Assembly (NCBI GenBank): GCA_015056205.1
Contig: SVGS01000001.1
Span: 244,365-308,364 of the forward strand
DNA length: 64,000 nt
Reading direction: 5' to 3'
From: Clostridiales bacterium
GTDB taxonomy: Bacteria > Bacillota > Clostridia > Christensenellales > Aristaeellaceae
In this document: positions 2,823 to 64,000 of the stretch, piece after piece
Position numbering within the stretch: the stretch's first letter is position 1
How the letters are laid out: each line of letters starts with the position of its first letter
Position numbers and translations under genes: made by a program
Notes under the pieces: model-generated
What the model saw: the letters and a program-made list of their open reading frames with translations, nothing else
What the model was told of the DNA's origin: nothing
The model's database searches: none

Positions 2823-5800
2823 TCAGTACCATATTTTGAGAATGGCCTTTCCAAGATCAAGCCACTGAATCGGGGCTGCCATTCCGCACGCATATGGCAG
2901 GAAAATCACAAAGCTGATCGCCGCCATTCCCGCAATCATCCAGGAGATGACGGCGCACTGCTTCTGCCTGATGCCGGGCCAGTCATGCAGGCAAAGAACG
3001 ATTCCGAGAATGATAAACGGAACGCTTGCAAAATAATGATAGATATAGGTACCTCTGGGTACAAGTACCCAGGGCAGATACTGTGCCAGAAGTCCGATGA
3101 ACAGGAATCCATATACCGGATTCCCTCGCTGTGTGATCAGCCGGGATTCCGGATCAGTAATGCTTGGATGACCGGTTCGGACATAAATCCAGCGGCCGAG
3201 GCATATGACCAAAGCCGGGAGTGCGCCGTACCAGATCACCGGATTTCCGAAGCAGAATATGCTGTAAGAAATACTGCTTTCCGCCGGAATATACTGTTTT
3301 GACGCAAAATACATGGGCTTTCCGATAATCGGCCATTCCCACCAGGGTGAGTAGAACGGATGATCCATCCCCAGTCCGGGACTGCCATGATAATTCAGCA
3401 TACCGGTCTGTGCCTGCCAGACTGCCCCGATATATTCCCAAAGGTTTGTAATTCGTTTGTTATATGCCATATAGGGAATATAACTCAGCAGATAGATAAC
3501 GGCCGGAACAGCCACAAAGAACAGCAGACACCATAAGCTCAGATGAATAAACCGTTTATGATCCATTCCGCGGGCTGTCATACGGATGCCGTAACCAAAG
3601 TAGAGAACGGCCAGACCAAGTCCCGCATAGATGCCAATCCATTTGCTGGCGATTGCCAGTCCCATAAAAAGCCCGCTGAATGCCAGTGGAATCAACTGTT
3701 TCCGGATGTCCTTTTCCTGATAATCGGTTTGCAGAAAGCGGAGCATAAAGAAATAGGCGAACAGGATAAACAGAACCGGAAAGCTGTCAATGGTTGCGAT
3801 CTGTGTCTGAGTAAGATGCTGACAGTCCAGCGCGAACAGTGCACAGGCCAGTGCGGCAGCCCAGGTTTTTTTTGTCAGCTGCTTCGTAAGCAGATACATT
3901 CCGGGAAGCATCAGCACCCCGGCAAGAGCACCGGCAAAGCGCCATCCAAAGGGGGTCATTCCGAAAATCAGCACAGAGAGGCTCATCAGAACTTTTCCCA
4001 GCGGAGGATGGCTGGTTTCATAGGGAACCGTTCCCTGGATAAATTCATAAGCGGTACGGGCATGATAGATCTCATCAAAATAGGTGCTGTTCCACCAGCT
4101 TGGCTCCGGATATTCTGAGGCCGAAGGAGAGAAAAGTCCGGGCAGATTCTCCAGCGTGTCCTGCTCATCCAGCAGCGCGGCCGGATCGGAATACAGGGAT
4201 GATTCCGTTTCTCCTCCGTCATGGGACAACACAACGGCTGGGATAATTTCATGCTGCGCATTACGGAACAGGATTTCATTGAGCTTCAGGCCGATCTGCT
4301 GTGCAGACAAACGGATATACCGGCCCTTGAGATGAATCAGATTGCTATCAGTCGAGTTATAATAGGATCGGGTTCCGTCGTAGTTATTGGAATAGATCGT
4401 AAGATATTTCCACTTCCAGCACTGGCTTTGCTCCATCTCAGCCCAGATTTCGTCAGACCAGTGCACCAGATCTTCGCTTTCGGCAACCGAGAAATCATTC
4501 CGGCTGACCTGGCCAAAATAAAGCATGGTCGTGTCTCCGGCCGCTTCACCCAGATCAAAGATAATCTGTTCGTCATAATCGCTGGATACCCAGCCATGCT
4601 GCGGAGCTTTGGTACTCCCAAGGGTGGTAAAGGAAAGAAGAGCAAAAGCAGATGTAACAGCCAGAAGAATCAGAGAATCTTTTTTGTTCCAGTGCAGATG
4701 CGGATCAGGCTGATGCCAGACAACGGGTTCTTCGTTTTTTGATAAATCTTTCTCTGTCTCCCGGGCCGCCATTTCCGCGGGAGCCGTTCTCCGAAGCAGC
4801 GCTCCGCCGAGATGAACAGCATACAGTGCTCCGATGCAGTTCAGGACGGACAGGATATCTGCCAGCCAGACGGTATCCGCGTTCAGATGTCCGCCGGAAG
4901 AACCAAGACGAATGCTGTTGTCCAGAATGATGCCTTCATTAATAAACAGTGTGCAGCTGAATCCCAGGATCAGATACAGAATGCGCCGGTCTCTTGTCCT
5001 GACCCAGGAAGCCCCCAGAAGGAAAAGTGCCGGAAGAATATAGCGTTCATGCATTTTCAGGCCAAAGACATACAGCAGGATCAGAAGCAAAGCGCCCCAA
5101 TAGGCAATCTGTCGGCTGCCTCCGTCCCGAATCAGCATAGACAGCACAATCACAAAGGCAAAAACCATAGCCCCGATTCCGATCCAGTTCCAGGGAGCGT
5201 TGAAAACGGTGCAGCCTGCCCAGAAGACGGCAAACAGAACGCCAAGAACGGTCTCGGCCTGATAGTATTTCTGTTCTTTAAAGAAGCGGTACCACCAGAT
5301 GGAATAGGATACCGCAGCCAATGCCAGCAGCAGACCGGGAATAATGCCCGGTGATTTTCCGAGGGCAGCCCAGTTTCCACCCAGCAGATAATTAAAGTTG
5401 GCGGTATTCAGTGTCGCATAGGAATATGAGGACAGCGTTTTCTGATACAGCGTCAGAAGCCAGCCCGCCGGTTGATGGACAGAGAAAGGCAGTACGCAGA
5501 TCACGGCGGTGACCGCGGAAAGAACAAGCGCCGGCAGGCAGCGCCTGTGTCCGGACGGCGTATGGACAAGGGTCTGGATGAAACAGACCAGTCCGATCGG
5601 TCCGACCATCAGGGCCTGGGGTTTCAGAAGTACACAGAGAATATAAAGCGGCAGAGCAGCAAGCCATTTTTCCTCCGCTGCCAGGACAGCGGTTATCATC
5701 AGAAGAAGGCAGAAAACACTGTCCATCTGTCCCCAGGCAGCGCTGTTCAGAATGAACGCCGGATTCAGGCTCAGCATTCCGGAAATGATCAGGGCCCAGC

Positions 5801-6905
5801 CGGAAGGAATGGTTTTACGTGCTTTGGCTCCTTCATAGATCATCCAGCAGGCCGCAAGATCGCACAGATTCGGCAGCAGCCGGAAAATAATGCGGGTCAT
5901 CTCTGCCGAACTGCCGGCAGACACCGTAGAATTCAATCCCAGGATATACAGGTATAAGGGAGGATAATCACAGAAGCTGGTGGTTTGATAGAAACGGGAT
6001 GGTCCTACGGCAGCCATGGTCTGTCCCCAGCTCAGAAAGCAGTTGACATCCACCTGATATCCTTCGATCCGGGCACTGAGCAAGAGCCTCAGAGTCAGAG
6101 AAAAAAGAGTAACCAGAGCCAGAATCCATCTTTCGCCCCGAATACCGTTGTGTTTTAGGGATAAACCGTCACGGGTAAAGTGGATCAGAAAGGCGCCGGC
6201 GGCAGTATAGGCCAGTCCGATCACGATCAGCCAGGGCCAGAACGGCGAGGCGGTCTCCTCTGTCGGCAGATCATCCGACCAGTCTTCCTCACCGTAATCA
6301 TAAGAAGGCTCTTCCCGAAACCATTTGGAAGCGATCTCATCTCCCGGAACTGCGTGAACTTCTTCAAGCCTCAGGTTCCGAAAACAGGCGCGGCCTTTTG
6401 TCAGTCCGCTGTATCCGCCCAGTCTGGCAAACAGCGTAACGCTGCGTTGATCCGTGCCTGTTTCACCGTACCATTCGATTGTTTTCCACGTACCGTCCGT
6501 ATCAAAAAGTTCTGTGCTAAAGGAATACAACCCTTCCACGCTTAGATTGGCGCCATGTCCTTCAACCGCGTTTTCTACAAGAACCTCTGCGCTGAAGCGA
6601 TAAAGTGTTTCCGGTTCAACATCCACCGTCTGAGCAAATCTGGCATCATTATATCCCAGATTTCGGATCTCTGCGGCAGTTTTTCCCTCTTCATCCGTCT
6701 GAACAGAAAACAGTGTGTAACCGGCATCCTGAATATAAGCTTCCGTATACCAGTCCGATGGGAATCCGTCGCTCTCAAGCTGAGAAAAGTCTCCGTTTGC
6801 CAGAAGATTTTCTCCGAGGACTTTCATAGGCAGGAGGATCGCAATGGCTGTCAGAAACAGGACAGTCATTCGGAAAAGCAGCGGCAGGCTTTTCATCCGG
6901 CGCAT
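2823..6905 (-). CDS. Giant multi-domain GT-C glycosyltransferase: signal/CBM-like N-terminus, GT87-like membrane half, discoidin-like region, C-terminal PMT/GT39 half
   Basis: 1360 aa; N-terminal NLLANGDFSQ...FPSDWY (CBM-like); YQVDVNCFLSWGQTMA and PLYLYILGL (GT-C); WWNSTYFDEIYHARTAYEFIQGTVPYETSHPPLGKVLMSL (PMT/GT39 DE motif); many TM segments. Confidence 0.8.
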   Translation of the reverse strand: MRRMKSLPLLFRMTVLFLTAIAILLPMKVLGENLLANGDFSQLESDGFPSDWYTEAYIQDAGYTLFSVQTDEEGKTAAEIRNLGYNDARFAQTVDVEPETLYRFSAEVLVENAVEGHGANLSVEGLYSFSTELFDTDGTWKTIEWYGETGTDQRSVTLFARLGGYSGLTKGRACFRNLRLEEVHAVPGDEIASKWFREEPSYDYGEEDWSDDLPTEETASPFWPWLIVIGLAYTAAGAFLIHFTRDGLSLKHNGIRGERWILALVTLFSLTLRLLLSARIEGYQVDVNCFLSWGQTMAAVGPSRFYQTTSFCDYPPLYLYILGLNSTVSAGSSAEMTRIIFRLLPNLCDLAACWMIYEGAKARKTIPSGWALIISGMLSLNPAFILNSAAWGQMDSVFCLLLMITAVLAAEEKWLAALPLYILCVLLKPQALMVGPIGLVCFIQTLVHTPSGHRRCLPALVLSAVTAVICVLPFSVHQPAGWLLTLYQKTLSSYSYATLNTANFNYLLGGNWAALGKSPGIIPGLLLALAAVSYSIWWYRFFKEQKYYQAETVLGVLFAVFWAGCTVFNAPWNWIGIGAMVFAFVIVLSMLIRDGGSRQIAYWGALLLILLYVFGLKMHERYILPALFLLGASWVRTRDRRILYLILGFSCTLFINEGIILDNSIRLGSSGGHLNADTVWLADILSVLNCIGALYAVHLGGALLRRTAPAEMAARETEKDLSKNEEPVVWHQPDPHLHWNKKDSLILLAVTSAFALLSFTTLGSTKAPQHGWVSSDYDEQIIFDLGEAAGDTTMLYFGQVSRNDFSVAESEDLVHWSDEIWAEMEQSQCWKWKYLTIYSNNYDGTRSYYNSTDSNLIHLKGRYIRLSAQQIGLKLNEILFRNAQHEIIPAVVLSHDGGETESSLYSDPAALLDEQDTLENLPGLFSPSASEYPEPSWWNSTYFDEIYHARTAYEFIQGTVPYETSHPPLGKVLMSLSVLIFGMTPFGWRFAGALAGVLMLPGMYLLTKQLTKKTWAAALACALFALDCQHLTQTQIATIDSFPVLFILFAYFFMLRFLQTDYQEKDIRKQLIPLAFSGLFMGLAIASKWIGIYAGLGLAVLYFGYGIRMTARGMDHKRFIHLSLWCLLFFVAVPAVIYLLSYIPYMAYNKRITNLWEYIGAVWQAQTGMLNYHGSPGLGMDHPFYSPWWEWPIIGKPMYFASKQYIPAESSISYSIFCFGNPVIWYGALPALVICLGRWIYVRTGHPSITDPESRLITQRGNPVYGFLFIGLLAQYLPWVLVPRGTYIYHYFASVPFIILGIVLCLHDWPGIRQKQCAVISWMIAGMAAISFVIFLPYACGMAAPIQWLDLGKAILKIWY

Positions 6906-6920
6906 GGATTTTCCCCTCCT

Positions 6921-7292
6921 TTAACGATAAAACATGCTTCCTGCAGGCTGAAAGGCGTTCGGAATATGCAGGATAGATTGAAGGCCGACTTCCACCACAT
7001 CGAAGCGGATTACAGCATTCATTTTCTGATGAAACATCAGATACAGGGTTGAAGCCCGAATGATTCTTTTCTGTTTTCTCTGATCCACGGCCAGCAGCCC
7101 CAGTCCCGGATCCCCGGTGCGGCGCGTTTTCACCTCAACGAAAACAACAGCATCTCCGTCCTGCATAATCAGATCAATTTCACCGCATTTATTTCTGTAC
7201 CGTCTTTCCAGACAACGCATCCCTTTTTCGGTTGTCAGATATTTTTCCGCGGCCAGTTCTCCGGATAAACCGGTTTCATACGTATGCTTCAT
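6921..7292 (-). CDS. YraN family (UPF0102) endonuclease-like protein
   Basis: GELAAEKYLTTEKGMRCLERRYRNKCGEIDLIMQDGDAVVFVEVKTR: UPF0102 signature. Confidence 0.93.
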   Translation of the reverse strand: MKHTYETGLSGELAAEKYLTTEKGMRCLERRYRNKCGEIDLIMQDGDAVVFVEVKTRRTGDPGLGLLAVDQRKQKRIIRASTLYLMFHQKMNAVIRFDVVEVGLQSILHIPNAFQPAGSMFYR

Positions 7293-7921
7293 ATAAAATT
7301 ACCGATAAAGCTTCTGCGGTGAATCGGGGTCGGTCCGAGTCGTTTCAGTGCGTCGATATGTTCCCTCGTTCCATAGCCCTTATTCCGGGCGAATCCATAT
7401 CCGGGATACAACCGATCCAACTCGCGCATTTCCCGGTCCCGGGTTACCTTTGCGACAATACTGGCCGCTGCAATACTGTAAGAGGAAGCATCCCCTTTGA
7501 TTACGGAAATTTCCCGGCCGTGCAGGCCGAGACTGGATACCGCATCTACCAGAAACAGATCCGCAGGCACAGCTGCAGCCGCCTCCCGCATCGCTTCCTT
7601 CGTTGCTTCCAGAATATTAATCCGGTCAATGATTTCGGGACTGCGGCGTCCGATGCCGACATACAGAGCCCGGGTCATAATTTCATCATAGACCTTTTCC
7701 CGTCTTGACTCACTCAGCTTTTTACTGTCATCGACCCATAAAATGAGCGGTTCAGAGGGAAGAATTACACAGGCTGTAACCACATCTCCGGCCAGGGGAC
7801 CGCGGCCGACTTCATCCATTCCGGCGACGGCCAGCCCCTGCTTTCGGTAGGGCATTTCAAAATCAATCAGCTGTCGGACTCTCGCCATCCGGTCTGTCAT
7901 TCCTGTCTCCCGCCTTTTCAT
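7289..7921 (-). CDS. rnhB: Ribonuclease HII
   Basis: VAGMDEVGRGPLAGDVVTACVIL; DDSKKLSESRRE; ASIVAKVTRDREM. Start may be an internal ATG; overlaps the end of the RbgA gene. Confidence 0.95.
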   Translation of the reverse strand: MKRRETGMTDRMARVRQLIDFEMPYRKQGLAVAGMDEVGRGPLAGDVVTACVILPSEPLILWVDDSKKLSESRREKVYDEIMTRALYVGIGRRSPEIIDRINILEATKEAMREAAAAVPADLFLVDAVSSLGLHGREISVIKGDASSYSIAAASIVAKVTRDREMRELDRLYPGYGFARNKGYGTREHIDALKRLGPTPIHRRSFIGNFI

Positions 7922-8801
7922 GATCGGTTTGATTCAATTCATTTCGGGAGTTATTCTTCGGCTCTTCGAGAGAGATTCGCCCGATTTTTCCTCCCCGAAA
8001 TTCGTCCAGTACCACATTGCAGCATCGTTCCAGATCCGCTTCCCCACCCTTCAGAAGCCACCCCCGGCCGCGACAAATACTCTCCATCACCTGTGGACCA
8101 TCCCCGGACAGGTCTTTCAGATGATACCGCTCAATCAGCGCCTGCGGCGCCAGGATCTTCAGTTCTTCCAAAAGGGCTGCAGTCAGTCCGTAAAGATCGA
8201 CCGTTTCATCCTTGATGGTTCCGATGTAGCAAAGCCTTCTCGCCGCATCCTGATCATCCAGTCTCGGCCAGAGAAGCCCCGGGGTATCCAGGAGCTCCAG
8301 GTAGGGCGTAACCCGTATGACCTGGCTGGCACGGGTTACCCCGGGCCGATCCCCGGTCTGCGCAATACTGTCTCCGCGCAAACGGTTAATCATTGTGCTT
8401 TTTCCAACATTCGGAACGCCGATGACCATGGCTCGTATCGTTTTTTTCATTCCCCTGAGCAACGCTTTTTCCGTGATCTCCCGGGTGCTTTTTTCTATCC
8501 TGTCCAGCAGCTCTTTCCGGTTCATCCGTAAAGTGCTCAGCAAAACAGCGTCCGTACCCTGGTTCTGAAACCAGTTGAGCCAACGGCGGTTGACTGTGTC
8601 GTTCGCAAGGTCGCTCTTGTTCAGAATCAGCAGCCGTTTTCTGAAACCGATCATTCTGTTCAGATCCGGATTTCGGCTGGAAAAGGGCATCCTGGCATCA
8701 CAGATTTCCAGGATCAGATCTGCTTTTTTGATCTGCTCCGCTATCTGTCTTCTGGCTTTCGCCATATGACCCGGATACCAGTTGATTTTTTGATTGTCCA
8801 T
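7863..8801 (-). CDS. rbgA: Ribosome biogenesis GTPase YlqF/RbgA
   Basis: NWYPGHMAKARRQI...LILEICDARMPFSSRNP; permuted GTPase motifs NKSDL, GVPNVGKSTMINRL, DTPGLLWPR. Confidence 0.95.
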   Translation of the reverse strand: MDNQKINWYPGHMAKARRQIAEQIKKADLILEICDARMPFSSRNPDLNRMIGFRKRLLILNKSDLANDTVNRRWLNWFQNQGTDAVLLSTLRMNRKELLDRIEKSTREITEKALLRGMKKTIRAMVIGVPNVGKSTMINRLRGDSIAQTGDRPGVTRASQVIRVTPYLELLDTPGLLWPRLDDQDAARRLCYIGTIKDETVDLYGLTAALLEELKILAPQALIERYHLKDLSGDGPQVMESICRGRGWLLKGGEADLERCCNVVLDEFRGGKIGRISLEEPKNNSRNELNQTDHEKAGDRNDRPDGESPTAD

Positions 8802-11043: not shown

Positions 11044-13110
11044 TTATTCTCTGATTTCCAGCGGAGATTCTCCCGTCAGCTTCCGGCTCAGCTGATCCGG
11101 CTGGCACGTACCGATATAGAATACCACGTGCCCGACTGTTTCCCGTTCTCCTTCTTCGTTTACCACTGTACGGGTCAGCGGATCCAGCCGGATTTCAACT
11201 TCCCTGCTTTCCCCTTTCCGCAGGCTGACCCGGGTAAACCCGCAAAGCCTGGGCCGGGGTGTCGCCTGAGAATGTTCGGCAGCCGCATAAACCTGAAGTA
11301 CCGCATCCCCGTCCATGGATCCGTCATTGGAAACGGTAACCTTCACGTTCTGCGCGCTGACCGCCGGTGCCGAGAGTGAAAAATGCGTATAGCTGAGACC
11401 GTAGCCGAACGGATATAAAGCTGTTCCGGTAAAGTATCGGTAGGTGCGGTTTGCCATGCTGTAATCTTCAAATGCCGGCAGATCCGCAATGTCACGGTAG
11501 AAAGTCAGCGGCAGATGTCCGCTGAATGAAACCTCTCCGAAGAGCAGCTTCGCCAGGGCCGTCCCGCCCGCCTGTCCGGGGTACCAGGCAAAGACCTTTG
11601 CGTTTCCCTCCTGAACATTCAGGGATGACCCGGCCGCAATAACCGTAACCAGGTGATCGGTGCTCTCCCGCAGGGTTTTCAGAAGCTTCCTCTGGGATTC
11701 GGGAATCAGCAGATCATTTTTATCTCCGCTGAAATATTCGTTTCCCGTATCTCCCTCTTCCCCTTCCAGGCCGGCATCCAGTCCGACGCAGGCTATGGTT
11801 ACATCGGCTATTTCAGCATACATGGCAGCTTCAGCCAGCCTGTCATCCGCCTGCGCCAGGCCGGAAGTTCTGTCCTTGAACAGATGACTGCCGAGGCTGT
11901 AAAGCACACGGATTCCGTGCTTTGCGGCATAGGTGCGAATCCCGTTCAGAAAAGTCACATACCGGCTGCTGGTTCCGTTATAGTTTCCTTCCAGTGCCAT
12001 CACGCTGTCAGCATTCGGTCCGATGACGGCAATGGTCTTCACCTGTTCGGCGTTCAGCGGAAGGATGCCATCGTTTTCCAGAAGGACCATGCCTTTTTCA
12101 GCCGCTTTCAGTGCCAGAGCGTCATGCTCATCTGTATCATTCTCCGTTACAGGAATATCGTCATATTCACAGTCATCCGCGAAGAGTCCCAGCATATAAC
12201 GGGTGGTAAACAGCCGTACGCAGGCCCTGGTGATATCCTCTTCGGAAATCAGGCCCTCCTGCAGCGCTTCCAGAATATGCAGATATGTGTTGCCGCAGTT
12301 CAGATCGCATCCGTTTTTTATGGCCAGAGCTGCGCTCTCGGGAGCGGTGGCTGTAACCTTATGATTTTCATGGAAATCACGGATCGCCCAGCAATCACTG
12401 ACGACATGGCCCTGAAAGCCCCATTTCCCCCGAAGCGTATCCGTGAGCAGAAATTTGGAACCACAGGCAGGTTCTCCGTTTACACGGTTATAAGCACCCA
12501 TTACGGATTCTACACCGGCTTCCCTGACTGTCGCTTCAAAAGCCGGCAGATAGGTTTCCTCAAGATCTTTTTTGCTGGCACGCGCGTCAAACTGATGGCG
12601 CAGAGCCTCCGGCCCGGAATGAACGGCAAAATGCTTGCTGCACGCGGCTGTTTTCAGGTATTTTCCGTTTCCCTGCAGACCTTTGATAAACCGGATTCCA
12701 AGCCGGCTTGTCAGATAGGGATCCTCTCCGTAGGTCTCATGCCCTCTTCCCCAGCGGGGATCCCGGAAAATATTGATATTGGGGCTCCATACCGTTAATC
12801 CCTTATAAATATCACGATCTCCGTGCCGGCTCTGCCCGTTATACTTTGCCCGGGCTTCCGTGGAAATTACCGAAGCGATCTCCTCCTGAAGGTCTTCGTC
12901 AAACATGGCGGCTAAACCGATCGCCTGGGGAAAAACGGTAGCCGTCCCCGCTCTGGCCACACCGTGCAGCGCTTCATTCCACCAGTTGTAAGCAGGGATA
13001 CCAAGCCGCGGAACAGCCGGTGCATCATATTTCAGCTGGGAAGCTTTTTCTTCCAGCGTCATCCTGGAAACAAGCTCTTTGGCTTTGGCGGTAGCAGTGT
13101 CTCTGTTCAT
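11044..13110 (-). CDS. Glycoside hydrolase family 3 (beta-xylosidase/beta-glucosidase)
   Basis: MTLEEKASQLKYDAPAVPRLGIPAYNWWNEALHGVARAG; GH3 VVSDCWAIRDF nucleophile region. ATG at 13110 preceded by AGGAG is preferred over the ORF start at 13158. Confidence 0.88.
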   Translation of the reverse strand: MNRDTATAKAKELVSRMTLEEKASQLKYDAPAVPRLGIPAYNWWNEALHGVARAGTATVFPQAIGLAAMFDEDLQEEIASVISTEARAKYNGQSRHGDRDIYKGLTVWSPNINIFRDPRWGRGHETYGEDPYLTSRLGIRFIKGLQGNGKYLKTAACSKHFAVHSGPEALRHQFDARASKKDLEETYLPAFEATVREAGVESVMGAYNRVNGEPACGSKFLLTDTLRGKWGFQGHVVSDCWAIRDFHENHKVTATAPESAALAIKNGCDLNCGNTYLHILEALQEGLISEEDITRACVRLFTTRYMLGLFADDCEYDDIPVTENDTDEHDALALKAAEKGMVLLENDGILPLNAEQVKTIAVIGPNADSVMALEGNYNGTSSRYVTFLNGIRTYAAKHGIRVLYSLGSHLFKDRTSGLAQADDRLAEAAMYAEIADVTIACVGLDAGLEGEEGDTGNEYFSGDKNDLLIPESQRKLLKTLRESTDHLVTVIAAGSSLNVQEGNAKVFAWYPGQAGGTALAKLLFGEVSFSGHLPLTFYRDIADLPAFEDYSMANRTYRYFTGTALYPFGYGLSYTHFSLSAPAVSAQNVKVTVSNDGSMDGDAVLQVYAAAEHSQATPRPRLCGFTRVSLRKGESREVEIRLDPLTRTVVNEEGERETVGHVVFYIGTCQPDQLSRKLTGESPLEIRE

Positions 13111-56769: not shown

Positions 56770-57693
56770 TTATTTTTCCTCCGCTCTGCGAGGCGTGTTT
56801 GCGATCAGGCTCTGAACCTCTTCCATTTTCGGCGGATTCAGCGGCAGAGGGAATCGGGAGATGGAAATCGCGGAACACGCGCTGGCAAATCGCACCAGCT
56901 CCTCATCCGGCATCCCGTGAAGCAGGCCATATACGCAGCCGGCCTTAAAGGTATCGCCAGCCCCCAGTGTGCTTCTGACCGTAACGGAGAACGGTTTCAT
57001 CCGGTGAATCGCCTCCCCTTTCCGGGCATACAGCATATCTCTGCCGCCCTGAGTCAGGATGGTCAGTCCGTCCGTTTCCCGCTGCATCAGCTCCAGGATT
57101 TCTTCAGGCTCCATACCCGCATAATGCTCCGCTGTACATTCTTTTGATACCACATTGACGGCAGCCTGCCGGTGCAGCACTGAACCGTGCGGGCTGTCAA
57201 TCGTTACAAAAGGAACCTGATGCTTCCTGCAGAGTTGCGCAGCCCGCAGAGATTCTGCGCCGAAATAAGGATCCACTGCCGCCGCTTTGCAGCCGGCAAT
57301 ATCTTCCTCCCTGGGAATACTCCACCATCTTTTCCCGCTCGCAAACAGCGTCTGGAATCTTCCCATCGGAGAGCGCACCAGACCCGCGATCACCACGTAG
57401 TCCATTACGCCGGTATCCTCCGTAAAGCACAGGGAAGATAAATCCACCGTTTTGTCTTCATAAAAGTCCTTCAGCATAGGCGCAACCGACCTTCCGATCC
57501 AGGTACCGTCCATCAGAACCGATACGCCGAGGGAGGCCAGAACGGTTGCGGCCGTTCCGGTTTCGCCGCCGGGAAGAAAATACTGTTCCGCGATCTCCGA
57601 GTACTCGTCCGGCTGAAGAAAGCCGTTTTTCAACAGAAATGAATGAGTTCCCAGCACCTGTCCGAAAAGGTATACGTCATGCTGCGGTCTCAT
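56770..57693 (-). CDS. PfkB family carbohydrate kinase
   Basis: FLPGGETGTAATVLASLG; C-terminal VRSTLGAGDTFKAGCVYGLLHG. Confidence 0.92.
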   Translation of the reverse strand: MRPQHDVYLFGQVLGTHSFLLKNGFLQPDEYSEIAEQYFLPGGETGTAATVLASLGVSVLMDGTWIGRSVAPMLKDFYEDKTVDLSSLCFTEDTGVMDYVVIAGLVRSPMGRFQTLFASGKRWWSIPREEDIAGCKAAAVDPYFGAESLRAAQLCRKHQVPFVTIDSPHGSVLHRQAAVNVVSKECTAEHYAGMEPEEILELMQRETDGLTILTQGGRDMLYARKGEAIHRMKPFSVTVRSTLGAGDTFKAGCVYGLLHGMPDEELVRFASACSAISISRFPLPLNPPKMEEVQSLIANTPRRAEEK

Positions 57694-57787: not shown

Positions 57788-57858
57788 CATGCGGTGTTCC
57801 GCTTGTATCACGTTCCTGTGATTTCGGTGAAGAAGATCAAAATAGTTTGAGAAGAATG

Positions 57859-57895
57859 ACAATATAAACTTAGAAATTACAATTTAGCTTAGAAA
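57859..57895 (+). repeat. Short imperfect ~20-bp direct repeats near the tnsA-proximal end (candidate TnsB-binding sites)
   Basis: ACAATataaaCTTAGAAAtt then ACAATttagCTTAGAAAc; ACAAT at 57859 and 57879, CTTAGAAA at 57869 and 57888; more ACAAT copies at 57918 and 57931. Confidence 0.6.
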
Positions 57896-57962
57896 CAACG
57901 TACAAACAGAGAGAATAACAATAAAGATATACAATTAAAAGACATAATAGATTTAGAATATA

Positions 57963-57991
57963 TTGCAATCCTAACACAAAAGATTTATAAT
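57963..57991 (+). promoter_or_regulatory. Candidate promoter of the tnsABC-tniQ operon
   Basis: TTGCAA-17 bp-TATAAT, 40 bp upstream of the tnsA ATG; RBS GGTGGAGG before the ATG. Confidence 0.7.
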
Positions 57992-58030: not shown

Positions 58031-58855
58031 ATGGGAAAGCCAAGAAGCGCCTGGAATTGGAACACCTGCCACAGACGGATCAAAGAAGGACGCGGCCAGG
58101 GCACAATGGCAGAGTATCTGCCATGGCTGACTATTCATGACCTTGCGTCGCTGGGAGTTTCCTCAAGAATTCGGGGCTTTACAACTGGACGGCTTCATCA
58201 TCTTCTCTCCGGTTTTGAGACGGCTTTTTTCTACATTCTGGATGCGTCAGATAAAGTACTGGATATCCGGGAACAGTTTCCGCTGTTGCCCATGGAAGCG
58301 ACATTGCGAATTGCTGACGAACTGGGGATCCGGCATCCGAGGGACCCGGTCAGCAGATATCCGTATGTGTTTACCAGCGACTTTGTTATCACGACGACAG
58401 AAGGGCTTGTTGTACGGAGTGTGAAACCATCTTCGGAACTGGACAAGCAGCGGGTGGTGGACAAACTGGCGGTGGAACGCCGGTACTGGGAAGAAAAAGG
58501 GATTGAATGGCGGCTTGCAACAGAAAAAGAGATCGACTTTCAGAAAGCCAGGAATCTGGAATGGATATATCGTTCCTGGGATTATCCGGAAAGGCTGCCT
58601 TGCGGTCTTACAGCGGAATGTGTCACATCGTACTTCCTGAATCTGTACAAGAACAGCCATTGGAATGTAGAAGATATCGCTGCTGAGACAGAAAAGCAAT
58701 TTCATCTGCAGCCCGGGTTTGGCATATCAACATATCAGTATCTGCTCCTTCATAAACGAATAACCATCGATCTGAGCCGGCCAATGGATCTTACATCGAC
58801 TAGGTTCGAAGCAAAGGAAGGAGGCAGGTTCACATGGATCGAAACTACTGCGTAA
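58031..58855 (+). CDS. tnsA: TnsA-like endonuclease subunit of Tn7-type transposase
   Basis: ILDIREQFPL-type segment (FFYILDASDKVLDIREQFPLLPMEATLRIADELGIRHPR), TSDFVITTTEGLVVRSVKPSSEL nuclease core and a C-terminal TnsA domain. Confidence 0.92.
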   Translation: MGKPRSAWNWNTCHRRIKEGRGQGTMAEYLPWLTIHDLASLGVSSRIRGFTTGRLHHLLSGFETAFFYILDASDKVLDIREQFPLLPMEATLRIADELGIRHPRDPVSRYPYVFTSDFVITTTEGLVVRSVKPSSELDKQRVVDKLAVERRYWEEKGIEWRLATEKEIDFQKARNLEWIYRSWDYPERLPCGLTAECVTSYFLNLYKNSHWNVEDIAAETEKQFHLQPGFGISTYQYLLLHKRITIDLSRPMDLTSTRFEAKEGGRFTWIETTA

Positions 58856-60999
58856 ATCAAGTGTATCGGGATATCCGGAGCGACCGGCAATTCCGACTGC
58901 TGTGGGTAGATCCTTCCACGGCCGGCTCATATATCTACTGGCTGGATGGGAAACCATCTGTGCCGAAAATGCTGGGTTTGCAGGAACTGGAACTCGGAGT
59001 ACAGCAGGGATGGATTGCTGAGGATCAGGATCCATTTGTGCTTCATGGCAATGCCAGCGAAAAGGACAAACAGTTCCGGGATGTCATTTGGAATAAAATG
59101 CGGGATGCCCTGCAGGATGAACCGGGTATCTACGACCGAAATATCCGGGCGGATCATCTGCGGCGCATCGAACAGGAAAGTGGCGAAAGAGTCTCCAATC
59201 TGTATCGTCATCTGAGCAGATATTGGGAGCGCGGAAAAACACCGGACGCTTTCCTGCCGGGATATAAAGCCAGCGGTGGCAGAGGAAAAGTGCGCGTTGG
59301 AAGGGCAAACCCAAAGAGCGAAACATCTTCCGACTTCGGGAAGACACTGACGCCTGTGGATCTCGTCAATTTTGAGGCAGCCATCCGGAAGTATTACCTG
59401 ACGCGCAAACTGGCAGATCTGACATCTGTTTACAATAAAATGCTGGAGGACAGTTATTCTGTTCAGGAAAAAGCAGAAGACGGAACGGAGAAGCTGAAAC
59501 TGTTGCCCAGGGGCGAACTGCCTTCCCTTCGGCAGTTTAGATACTGGTATTCCAAACGGCAGGATATCCATGAGGAAGTCAGCAAGCGCCAGGGTGAAAC
59601 CGGCTTTGCGCTGACAGCTCGGGCAGTGACTGGAAAAAATGAATTCGGAATGTTGGGACCCGGATCCCAATATCAGGTGGATGCGACCGTGGCAGATGTT
59701 TACCTGGTATCACAGTTTGACAGATCAGATATCATTGGCCGACCGGTCATGTATTTTGTCATGGATGCGGTCAGCCACATTGTAACCGGGATGTATATCG
59801 GTCTGGAAGGCCCTTCCTGGACTGGCATGAGCATGGCACTGTACAACGCCACAACAGATAAGGTGGATTATTGCCATCAGTTTGGGATCGAGATCACGGA
59901 AGAACAGTGGCCTTGTCATCATGTTCCGGCAGTATTGCTGGGAGACCGCGGCGAACTGGAAAGTCATAAGGCAGATAATCTGGTCACCATGCTGGGAATC
60001 CGGGTGGATAACGCGCCGCCGTATCGCGGGGACCTGAAGCCCATCATTGAAAGCCATTTCAAAACGATCAACACGCAGGTGAAACCACTTCTTCCAGGAT
60101 GGGTCATGCCGGATAACCGTCGGCGCGGCGGAGAAGACTACAGGCTGGATGCAAAACTGGATATCCGGGAATTCACTCAGATTGTCATTAACTGTGTGCT
60201 TCATTACAACAACAAGCACTACCTGACCGGATATGAAAAAAGCGAACAGATGCTGAAATCCGGCGTAGAGGCGATTCCGGTCAAGCTATGGGACTGGGGA
60301 ATCCGCAATTGTTCCGGAGCACTGAAAACATTCCCTAAAGAGACGATTCGCCTGGCGCTCATGCCCAAGGATTCCGGAAGCGTTACGGAAAAGGGAATCT
60401 ATTTCAAAAAACTGTATTACTCCTGTCCGCAGGCGCGGGAAGCACAGTGGTTTGAGAACGCCCGGAAGAACGGCCGCTATTCTGTGGATATCTCCTACGA
60501 TCCGCGGGATATGAATACGATCTATGTGTGGGATAAAAACGGCGGCGATCCATACGAGTGTACTCTGCTGGATTGGGAACAGCGGTTTGCGGAGAAGAGC
60601 CTGGAGGAAGTGGAGTACGAGCAGAAGAAGCGGGATCTGCAGATCAGAAACAACGAGAGGGAGGAAAAAGAATCCCTCATCAATCTGAACCGAATCATTG
60701 ACACCATCGTCAAAAAAGCAGAGGAAATGGCGCCATCCACTGCCGGAAAATCCAAATCGGAACGGTTGGCAGATATTCGGGGAAACAGGAAGGAAGAAAA
60801 GGAAGCGATACGGAAGGAAGAAGCCTTCACTTCATCGAAACCAACAAAGACGGCTGAAGCGGAGCAAACAGCGCTCTCGGAGACCGACCCGTTCAGAATG
60901 ACCGAGGAAGAATGGGAAACGCTTTCGCCTGTTGAGAGAATGATTTACGAAGATGTGAAGAGGAGGCAGCAGGATGGCGGCATGGACAGTGAAAGCTGA
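58834..60999 (+). CDS. tnsB: TnsB-like DDE transposase
   Basis: DDE pattern: QVDATVADVYLV (D), AVLLGDRGELES (D), GDLKPIIESHFKTIN (E); Mu-type C-terminal beta-barrel region. Confidence 0.94.
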   Translation: MDRNYCVNQVYRDIRSDRQFRLLWVDPSTAGSYIYWLDGKPSVPKMLGLQELELGVQQGWIAEDQDPFVLHGNASEKDKQFRDVIWNKMRDALQDEPGIYDRNIRADHLRRIEQESGERVSNLYRHLSRYWERGKTPDAFLPGYKASGGRGKVRVGRANPKSETSSDFGKTLTPVDLVNFEAAIRKYYLTRKLADLTSVYNKMLEDSYSVQEKAEDGTEKLKLLPRGELPSLRQFRYWYSKRQDIHEEVSKRQGETGFALTARAVTGKNEFGMLGPGSQYQVDATVADVYLVSQFDRSDIIGRPVMYFVMDAVSHIVTGMYIGLEGPSWTGMSMALYNATTDKVDYCHQFGIEITEEQWPCHHVPAVLLGDRGELESHKADNLVTMLGIRVDNAPPYRGDLKPIIESHFKTINTQVKPLLPGWVMPDNRRRGGEDYRLDAKLDIREFTQIVINCVLHYNNKHYLTGYEKSEQMLKSGVEAIPVKLWDWGIRNCSGALKTFPKETIRLALMPKDSGSVTEKGIYFKKLYYSCPQAREAQWFENARKNGRYSVDISYDPRDMNTIYVWDKNGGDPYECTLLDWEQRFAEKSLEEVEYEQKKRDLQIRNNEREEKESLINLNRIIDTIVKKAEEMAPSTAGKSKSERLADIRGNRKEEKEAIRKEEAFTSSKPTKTAEAEQTALSETDPFRMTEEEWETLSPVERMIYEDVKRRQQDGGMDSES

Positions 61000-62521
61000 A
61001 TACCTTCAGCAGGTGCTGCCGGAATATCAGGACAATCCGCTCATCGAAGCTCTTCCAGATATTCTCTCAGCCAGCGATACTATGAAGCTGCTGACAAAGC
61101 GGCCGCGATACAGTGCGGATGAACGGAACCTGGAATCAAAATATCGGATTCACTGTTTGTCCCGTCTGCTGCATGAGTTTTACCAGCCGTTGCCGCAGCA
61201 TATTGACATAGAGACCAGAATATCGGTGTGCTTACGGCAGGGATATCTGAATCGGAATCCCCTGGGGAAGCAATACACGCTCATGGCCAACGAATCATAT
61301 GAGGCTATGCGGGAAAAGCGGCAAATTCGTTACATCCCCGGTTATCATCCCAATGCTTCAGGCTTTACCATCATCGGAGTATCTGGCGTTGGGAAAAGTA
61401 CTGCAGTGGAAAGCATCCTGTCCCTTTACCCGCAGGTTATTCAGCACTCCCTGTATCATGGCGAACCGCTCCCAGTGAAGCAGATCGTCTGGCTGAAGCT
61501 GGACTGTCCGCACAACGGTTCTTTGGGTGAACTCTGTTACCGGTTCTTCAAAGCAGTAGACGACGCCATTGAGCCGGAAGAGAAGATCTTTGACCAGTAC
61601 AAAAAATCCCGGATTACCATTGATTCCATGCTGACGAATATGCAGCGGCTTGCGCAGGAATATTCGTTGGGAATGTTGGTGGTTGACGAGGTTCAGCACC
61701 TTTCACTGGCCAAGGGCGGTTCCGACGCCATGCTGAATTTCTTTGTGACGCTTGTCAATACCATTGGCGTACCGGTGGTTCTCATCGGGACATCCAAGGC
61801 AATGCCGATTCTGCAGGGCGAATTCCGCCAGGCGCGTCGTTCCAGCGGTCACGGAGATCTCATCTGGAACCGGATGAAAAAGGAACGGACCTGGATTACC
61901 TTTGTGGAATCCATGTGGGAATATCAATGGCTGCGCAACAAGGTGCCTCTGACAGCAAAGATGCTGGACGCGTTCTACGAAGAAACGCAGGGGATCATCG
62001 TTCTGGCGGTGATTCTGTACGTATTGATTCAGGAAGACGCCATCATTAGCGAACGTGAAACCTTCGGCGCGGAAGATGTCGGCAGGGTGGCGCGTCAGCG
62101 AATGGCACTGGTTCAGCCCATGCTGGACGCGCTGCGGAAAAACGATCAGAAACTCATTGACAAGTACGAGGATATCACAGACATTCTGCTGGAAGAGGTT
62201 GACCGGCGGCTTTGGTCAGATCTTGCGAAGACTGAAAATCAAAAATCAGGAGAGACCCGAACACTGGAGAAGCTCCGTAATGACATCCTGCCATTCTTTG
62301 TGGCTTTGAAATACAGGCCGGAAGAGATTGAGCCTTACATTGAACAGATTTATCGGGAAAACAAAACCGACGATACGAAAGTCATCATGACCAAAGTATT
62401 TGAATTGGTCAAAAAAGAAGAAAGCAACGAACCTGTTCAGGCCGAGAAGAAATCGCAGAAACAGGAAACCGGTTATGAGGCATTTGCGAATAAAGGTCTG
62501 GTGGATGGAAAAGACTGGTGA
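60974..62521 (+). CDS. tnsC: TnsC-like AAA+ ATPase
   Basis: Walker A IIGVSGVGKSTAVES; Walker B LGMLVVDEVQHLS; VPVVLIGTSKAMPILQGEFRQARRSSG sensor region. Confidence 0.94.
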   Translation: MAAWTVKAEYLQQVLPEYQDNPLIEALPDILSASDTMKLLTKRPRYSADERNLESKYRIHCLSRLLHEFYQPLPQHIDIETRISVCLRQGYLNRNPLGKQYTLMANESYEAMREKRQIRYIPGYHPNASGFTIIGVSGVGKSTAVESILSLYPQVIQHSLYHGEPLPVKQIVWLKLDCPHNGSLGELCYRFFKAVDDAIEPEEKIFDQYKKSRITIDSMLTNMQRLAQEYSLGMLVVDEVQHLSLAKGGSDAMLNFFVTLVNTIGVPVVLIGTSKAMPILQGEFRQARRSSGHGDLIWNRMKKERTWITFVESMWEYQWLRNKVPLTAKMLDAFYEETQGIIVLAVILYVLIQEDAIISERETFGAEDVGRVARQRMALVQPMLDALRKNDQKLIDKYEDITDILLEEVDRRLWSDLAKTENQKSGETRTLEKLRNDILPFFVALKYRPEEIEPYIEQIYRENKTDDTKVIMTKVFELVKKEESNEPVQAEKKSQKQETGYEAFANKGLVDGKDW

Positions 62522-63423
62522 GTGGACAGCAGTTCGGTATTCTGCCGGTACCATATCCGGATGAAAACTGCTACAGCATCATGTGTAGATTTGCTGTTCG
62601 CCACGGACAAACGAGCAACATCCAGATCATTCATGAACTGCTCGGCAACATAACGCCGCTCGACAGTTATGTATTCAAACCTTTCAGACTCCGGGATATC
62701 CGGCGCTGGTATGGCACAGATGAGATTCATGTACACTATGTCGAAAAATTCAGTTGCTATCCGTTTTACAACATGTTTTTACGTCCGACTTTTGCTGCGA
62801 AGGTGAAGGAGAGTGTTATCGGAACAAGTATGACAGTTGGGCAGGCAAAGCAAATCAACAGAGAGTGCGGCTTCAGCCAGGGCCACAAGAAAAGTCTTTG
62901 GTATTGCCCGGAATGTGTCAGGGAAGACGTCCTTCTGCATGGAGAAACATGCTGGAGACGGCTTCCGCAAATGCCCGGTGCGGTTTACTGTCCAATTCAT
63001 GAAGTGAAACTACGGGAAAGCGGAGTAAGTTTCCGGGATATCAAATACAATCTGATTCCAGCGAACTATGCGATGAACCATATTCCTGAACCAGATCCGG
63101 AACCCGGAAATGTGTATTCGGATCGGTATATTAGTCTGGCCAAAGATATTGCCTGGCTTCTGGACAAAGGATTTCAGTTTTCCGACAGCGAATGGGTAAA
63201 GCGGAGTTACTTCGAAATCACCGGAAGCCATCTGACTACGAGCTTTATTTTCGATTTCTTCACGATTCCTGAATGGGCAGACCATTTCGAAGAATATCTG
63301 GCGGCAAAGATCATGAAGGACTGTGGAAAAGAGAGGATTCATTGGACGATCCGAAAGCAAATCGCGACAATCCTTTGCATCAAAAGGAAGTTTGGCACGG
63401 TGGAGAAGTTTTACTCCTCATAA
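62518..63423 (+). CDS. tniQ: TniQ/TnsD-family protein (short, 301 aa)
   Basis: LPVPYPDENCYSIMCRFAVRHG TniQ N-terminus; zinc finger YCPECVREDVLLHGETCWRRLPQMPGAVYCPIHEVKL. GTG start overlaps the tnsC TGA. Confidence 0.92.
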   Translation: MSGQQFGILPVPYPDENCYSIMCRFAVRHGQTSNIQIIHELLGNITPLDSYVFKPFRLRDIRRWYGTDEIHVHYVEKFSCYPFYNMFLRPTFAAKVKESVIGTSMTVGQAKQINRECGFSQGHKKSLWYCPECVREDVLLHGETCWRRLPQMPGAVYCPIHEVKLRESGVSFRDIKYNLIPANYAMNHIPEPDPEPGNVYSDRYISLAKDIAWLLDKGFQFSDSEWVKRSYFEITGSHLTTSFIFDFFTIPEWADHFEEYLAAKIMKDCGKERIHWTIRKQIATILCIKRKFGTVEKFYSS

Positions 63424-63444: not shown

Positions 63445-63873
63445 GTGTCGCTGTTGGATGGATTTAAAGAAATCCCACTGAAGGAAAAGCTGGAAGACTC
63501 CATTCTGACGATTACATCAAAATCGTTGAAACTGAGCCGGGCAACTGCCAGACTTCTTGATACGCCAGGACTCGTCAAGTTCCTGACAAACGAAAAGAAA
63601 ATGCAGATCGCTCTCACACCGGCTAAGATCGGCGATGAGAACGGTGTGGATTTTACTTTTCCCCCAGAAGGACGGGAGAAGCCAATTCTGGTGAAAGAAC
63701 CGGCAATCCTGAAAAAGGTTGGGAGTATGACGACGCTGGAAAAGAACGGAACCAATCTGATGCTAACGATCAAAGGGGTGGTGTATCCGGATGAAAAGGT
63801 GATCATTTACGATCTGGGAGAAGCAGAAGAGACGATCATCAAACCGCGGGGTAGAAAACGGAAAGAAGCATAG
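63445..63873 (+). CDS. Unassigned 142-aa protein downstream of tniQ, basic tail with AT-hook-like PRGRKRK
   Basis: GTG start after AGGGGG; C-terminus EETIIKPRGRKRKEA; 21 bp after tniQ on the same strand. Confidence 0.7.
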   Translation: MSLLDGFKEIPLKEKLEDSILTITSKSLKLSRATARLLDTPGLVKFLTNEKKMQIALTPAKIGDENGVDFTFPPEGREKPILVKEPAILKKVGSMTTLEKNGTNLMLTIKGVVYPDEKVIIYDLGEAEETIIKPRGRKRKEA

Positions 63874-63902
63874 TTGTTGTTCGTCAAATTCCATGAGGAT
63901 CA

Positions 63903-64000
63903 GATCGTCACAATAAATGCGGGAGAAAATGCAGCCTAAGAGGTTGCATCGTCACAATCGTCATAATCAAAGCGGAAAGATCGTCACAGTAAATGCGGAG
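63903..64000 (+). repeat. Iterated ~19-bp motif ATCGTCACAATAAATGCGG, continuing to or beyond the window edge
   Basis: atcgtcacaataaatgcgg at 63904; atcgtcacaat at 63948 overlapping atcgtcataatcaaagcgg at 63957; atcgtcacagtaaatgcgg at 63980. Hairpin ATGCAGCCT-aag-AGGTTGCAT at 63929-63949. Confidence 0.75.

Follow-up and report, generated by a model that had tools for sequence, protein, structure and literature searches.

A Tn7-type transposition operon with a core-only TniQ beside pfkB in a Clostridiales genome, with probable low insertion specificity and a second mobile element at the contig end

The window studied here, a stretch of 64,000 nucleotides from a Clostridiales genome, carries near its right edge a set of genes that is probably the left part of a cut-and-paste Tn7-type element, inserted immediately upstream of the pfkB promoter, provided with a TniQ protein reduced to its core, of low insertion specificity, and interrupted in the assembly by another mobile element, named X in this study. 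Tn7 is the textbook case of a transposon that stays in place unless a dedicated target selector allows it to move. By homology with it, TnsB would bind the repeated end sites and join the 3' ends, TnsA would cut the 5' strands, giving with TnsB a double-strand excision, and TnsC would bridge the transposase to the target protein. Insertion would produce a 5-bp duplication, as expected from Tn7 and as seen in sister elements; comparison with these suggests that TniQ, acting via TnsC, would license insertion with little sequence preference. X would have inserted directly past a fifth gene (ORF5), breaking the assembly and hiding the right end. The features, all on the + strand, are the following:

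57817 to 57837, + strand: likely outer left terminus (TGTGATTTCGGTGAAGAAGAT), placed from the limit of the pfkB promoter, the first TnsB-like site and the TGTG analogy
57838 to 57990, + strand: six repeats resembling TnsB-binding sites, with starts at 57838, 57860, 57879, 57919, 57943 and 57975
58031 to 58855, + strand: tnsA, endonuclease of 274 aa (PF08722 and PF08721; Tn7 TnsA, 1f1z, E 3e-42)
58834 to 60999, + strand: tnsB, DDE transposase of 721 aa (PF09299; Tn7 TnsB, 7pik, E 5e-104)
60974 to 62521, + strand: tnsC, AAA+ regulator of 515 aa (PF13401 and PF05621; Tn7 TnsC, 8glu, E 3e-81)
62518 to 63423, + strand: tniQ, 301 aa, core only (PF06527 without PF15978)
63445 to 63873, + strand: ORF5, 142 aa, fifth gene of the operon, 21 bp past tniQ
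63875 to 64000, + strand: end of element X, a repeated TGT-end unrelated to the Tn7-like element

The region 58031-63423 is a tight operon in the order tnsA-tnsB-tnsC-tniQ, in which neighbouring genes overlap by 22 bp (tnsA/tnsB), 26 bp (tnsB/tnsC) and 4 bp (tnsC/tniQ), and the four overlapping same-strand genes of the initial annotation were all recovered at their positions. Its inventory was right in these genes and overlooked ORF5 and the foreign DNA at 63875-64000; its description of a Tn7-like, TnsA-containing core whose targeting mode was left open was also right. Pfam matches above the curated cut-offs were obtained for the TnsA N- and C-terminal domains, Mu-transpos_C, AAA_22/TniB and TniQ. 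In a search against all solved structures, E. coli Tn7 was the top match of each of TnsA, TnsB and TnsC; for TnsB it was followed by the Tn6677 TnsB (1e-23) and by further TnsB proteins of CRISPR-associated transposons (CASTs), at about 2e-12.

The phmmer alignments to the Tn7 structures agree with Pfam on the TnsA nuclease, TnsB DDE, TnsC Walker A/B and TniQ zinc-finger signatures previously reported. The columns kept are HHLLSxxE, TSDFVI and VKP in TnsA and YQVDATVADVYLV, VLLGDRGEL and PIIESHFKTI in TnsB; Walker A (GVSGVGKST) and Walker B (LVVDEVQHLS) are present in TnsC, and the zinc finger CPEC...C..H is kept in TniQ. The alignment of these columns was computed, and the residues concerned are those that we take to be catalytic in Tn7. 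Since the nuclease, DDE and Walker residues are all kept, none of the machinery looks degenerate, including the TnsB and TnsC motifs whose possible decay had been raised. The TnsABC-tniQ set is, from its sequence, the intact-looking machinery of a Tn7-type transposon, and mobility of the window copy is predicted from the intact genes. With E. coli Tn7 the element shares the gene order, the catalytic residues and the repeated sites upstream of tnsA, and TnsABC of Tn7 are the closest among the solved structures. It differs in the C-terminal domain of TnsD, which Tn7 possesses, in the additional ORF5 and in not adjoining glmS.

At the left side, pfkB starts at 57693 on the - strand and the gap between pfkB and tnsA holds the six end repeats, AT-rich and of the type CAAAATAGTTTGAGAA. 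Pairs of similar 16-mers at this end numbered 34; in 100 first-order shuffles the mean was 6.8 and the highest count 31. The site score matrix was built from five of the six left-end sites and its scores for these sites are therefore circular; neither the pair count nor the sixth site is affected by this. Several relatives share the pfkB promoter region (ATTATAGTGAAC...CTTGTCAA) up to approximately 57787, so that the transposon should start between 57788 and 57838. TGTG termini were seen in Bacillus and Klebsiella relatives, and the TGTG at 57817 is the likeliest left terminus, a boundary whose exact place we infer. The intergenic region upstream of pfkB showed no conservation among 26 relatives, and for that reason an empty site is not definable there. 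The element adjoins the pfkB promoter and not the 3' side of glmS at which Tn7 homes.

The contig (308,364 bp) stops exactly at window base 64000, inside X. The X block opens with TGTTGTTCGTCAAATTC, and its flanks differ at every copy: one in G201, a genome of the same family (99% over 126 bp), one in the viral contig L068 (identical over about 100 bp) and a weaker match in G348. As the contig ends inside a repeated element, the assembly break is explained. No cluster of TnsB sites was found between tniQ and X, and consequently the right end of the Tn7-like element should sit beyond X; no right end matching the left-end sites was found at either end of any contig of the same genome.

The repeats at 63902-63998 were considered as right-end TnsB sites and discarded, because they fall in the block that is 99-100% common to unrelated contigs with a fixed TGTTG boundary and are unlike the left-end sites; they were likewise discarded as a CRISPR-like array because of their position in that common block. 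The loci of X are window 63875-64000, L068:1-102, L070/L072 (G201) and L071/L074 (G348). Its end consists of TGTTGTTCGTCAAATT plus several ATCGTCACAATAAATGCGG repeats, and X interrupts a DUF6088 gene in the phage contig L068, truncating it after position 76 of the 172 of the family, and other genes elsewhere. The transposase and the second end of X were not found.

Within Tn7 TnsD, the TniQ of the window aligns to the N-terminal region alone (E 1.6e-7), and it lacks the TnsD domain PF15978 that is present in the TniQ proteins of 478-638 aa of relatives. Because this DNA-reading domain is absent, insertion is probably loose, neither confined to one attachment site nor RNA-guided. In the TniQ tree, the window protein is joined with those of RUG11222 (a fragment), G010 and G041 in one clade (support 99/96) that stands apart from the TnsD-type proteins, and the window TniQ thus groups with elements lacking conserved sites. 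In the TnsB tree, constructed without Tn5053 or I-B CAST rows, the window and RUG11222 (72% identity) form a pair and the deeper forks are unsettled. TniQ and TnsD proteins constitute a size continuum in which the need for a partner is often unclear (Faure et al. 2023, PMC10293859).

The sister elements of G010 and G041, genomes of the window's genus, are complete (5690 and 5710 bp, respectively), with inverted ends from TGTACA to TGTACA. They encode tnsABC-tniQ alone, are cargo-free and have a TniQ of 279-280 aa without PF15978. They share with the window the clade of core-only TniQ, the four-gene set and AT-rich end repeats, but differ in having no fifth gene, in the terminal sequence TGTACAGARACATTA and in that both ends and the target duplications are seen. 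These duplications are of 5 bp. In G010, with one copy, CCCGG is part of the stem of a hairpin resembling a terminator, in the gap that separates amtB from the 5' side of glmS; attTn7 is on the 3' side of glmS, so the two sites differ. In G041, with two copies, AGATA belongs to the last codons of the S-adenosylhomocysteine hydrolase gene and TTTAA is intergenic. The three insertion sites have no obvious sequence in common. The flanks were paired by end identity and duplications across separate contigs of metagenome-assembled genomes, and were joined to show the empty sites; the G018 element (L022), whose ends are similar but which shows no precise 5-bp duplication, was left out of the site set. 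The G010 site corresponds to L084:4777 and L024:13106 (contigs 2 and 21), with the hairpin GGAACCGGGCGCC-TTCG-GGCGCCCGGTTCC, between the amtB/P-II gene and glmS.

By analogy with these sisters, the window element is probably of low insertion specificity, an estimate drawn from three short-TniQ sites, at which terminators or the 3' ends of genes may be loosely preferred. The window element may also target differently from its sisters, which have no ORF5. The complete four-gene sisters argue against a strict need for a partner encoded by the transposon in the short-TniQ clade; TniQ could possibly still be assisted by a host partner or, in the case of the window element, by ORF5.

ORF5 is preceded by a ribosome-binding-like stretch and had no matches in Pfam, NCBIfam, PADLOC or PHROG. 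It is akin to small proteins in L037 and L038 (BLASTP 2e-8 and 1e-7, single comparisons), the first encoded 17 bp behind a serine recombinase gene and the second near an integrase-like gene, these neighbours having been named by eye. The homologues (L037:1432-1872 and L038:1498-1872) represent a family of 124-146 aa, encoded directly after or next to genes for serine recombinases and integrase-like proteins, of which ORF5 is a distant member. Among the relatives searched, ORF5 stands beside a Tn7-like operon at the window locus only. The viral contigs scanned with TnsB, ORF5 and the two ORF5 homologues gave no match, nor did the search for ORF5 in phages and plasmids. AlphaFold confidence was poor (pLDDT 36 for ORF5 and 43 for TniQ) and the models were unusable. 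ORF5 is a candidate accessory protein or target selector.

An alternative in which TniQ acts as an adaptor for ORF5, a new selector or regulator that would determine the site in the manner of TnsF in Tn6022, is considered unlikely. The position of ORF5 in the operon, 21 bp behind tniQ, its kin adjoining site-specific recombinases and the proposal of Faure et al. 2023 (PMC10293859) that small TniQ proteins mark elements with a further target selector favour it, but complete sisters lack a fifth gene, ORF5 accompanies a Tn7-like operon at the window alone, and it has no recognised DNA-binding domain and could be cargo. Tn6022 (tnsABC-tniQ-tnsF; PMC10293859) also has a small TniQ followed by an extra operon gene; its TnsF, on the other hand, is a protein of 498 aa in which zinc fingers are combined with tyrosine-recombinase domains, while ORF5 has 142 aa without recognised domains. 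That ORF5 is a new Tn7 target selector or accessory, recruited from the neighbourhoods of serine or tyrosine recombinases and partnering the core-only TniQ, seems quite improbable. Equally open to comparison is a homing Tn7-like element whose short TniQ reads a specific site near pfkB: there is one copy in the genome and the element lies between genes, outside coding sequence. We regard this as very unlikely, given that the TnsD domain is absent, that the region upstream of pfkB is unconserved among the 26 relatives and that the sisters sit elsewhere.

The initial annotation had suggested that a CRISPR effector or a second tniQ/tnsD might follow to the right. The DNA at the contig end belongs instead to X, and no second TniQ was found in the same genome, where the PF06527 profile matches the window TniQ alone; there was also no match to the type I-B Cas7 (PF01905) genome-wide, no CRISPR array in the window or at any contig end of that genome, and no TnsE in the visible part of the element. 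With the genome 91% complete and the element's right part absent from the assembly, the CRISPR idea is lowered and not refuted. The core of an I-B-like CAST, or of an element with a second TnsD or TnsE, having its module on the missing right side, would agree with a TniQ of the size of those in I-B, I-F3 and V-K CASTs and with weak PADLOC matches to TniQ I-F and I-B. We nevertheless give it little credence, as cas genes and arrays like those of CASTs were absent from the window and the contig ends, the TnsB is far nearer to that of Tn7 than to I-F3 or V-K TnsB, and the sisters are whole elements that have no cas genes. An immobile remnant, that is, an old Tn7-like insertion broken by X, could account for X lying directly behind ORF5 and for the right end not being visible; with four open genes and intact catalytic residues it is extremely unlikely. 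A low-specificity Tn7-type element with a core-only TniQ is therefore retained as the probable interpretation.

Tn7-like elements are already known in Firmicutes. Cargo is present in 96% of the Tn7-like transposons that have been delineated (PMC8649781). A literature search, mostly without subscription papers, revealed no described Tn7-branch family that is cargo-free, has only a core TniQ and occupies scattered sites, and no description of TnsD-type homing to the NlpC/P60 gene of integrative and conjugative elements (ICEs), which weakly suggests the novelty of both. The scattered minimal elements beside TnsD-homing kin constitute a natural experiment on whether the TniQ core can by itself license insertion, and their comparison can show what the TnsD domain adds to this core. 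The minimal elements of 5.7 kb could also seed simple insertion tools for Clostridia.

These TnsD-type relatives, in Lachnospiraceae (L016-L020 and L014), share with the window the TnsB family (48-51% identity) and the operon, but they have the TnsD domain and start 4-8 bp past the stop codon of an ICE gene for an NlpC/P60 protein. TniQ has 633-638 aa with PF15978 in L016-L020 and is cut by the contig end in L014. At five loci the distance from the stop codon to the element is 8 bp (L016, L018 and L020) or 4 bp (L014 and L017), and the product of the adjoining gene ends in WQ[QS]HFY..GR; the boundaries are L016:9054, L018:4346, L020:141, L014:73 and L017:1651. In L016 and L018 this gene encodes M23 and NlpC/P60 domains and follows genes of the conjugation type. 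Over 7.2 kb the elements of L018 and L020 share 96% identity, with the match opening at the boundary, 9 bp past the stop codon in L020, and the match of L016 to L018 (94.5%) extends back as far as the 3' portion of the NlpC/P60 gene, where it ends. The identical position in differing hosts indicates homing, and the TnsD-type elements apparently home to the NlpC/P60 gene of conjugative elements; if so, the transposon could travel with ICEs. Additionally, L018:10839-13214 is an extra insertion, absent from L020, with an IS110-like ORF (11645-12904, identified by eye). Behind the TnsD-type element of L019, positions 5416-8730 contain cargo encoding a TIR-domain protein (TIR_2, ThsB_TIR) and, by eye, a SIR2-like protein, a probable defence cargo.
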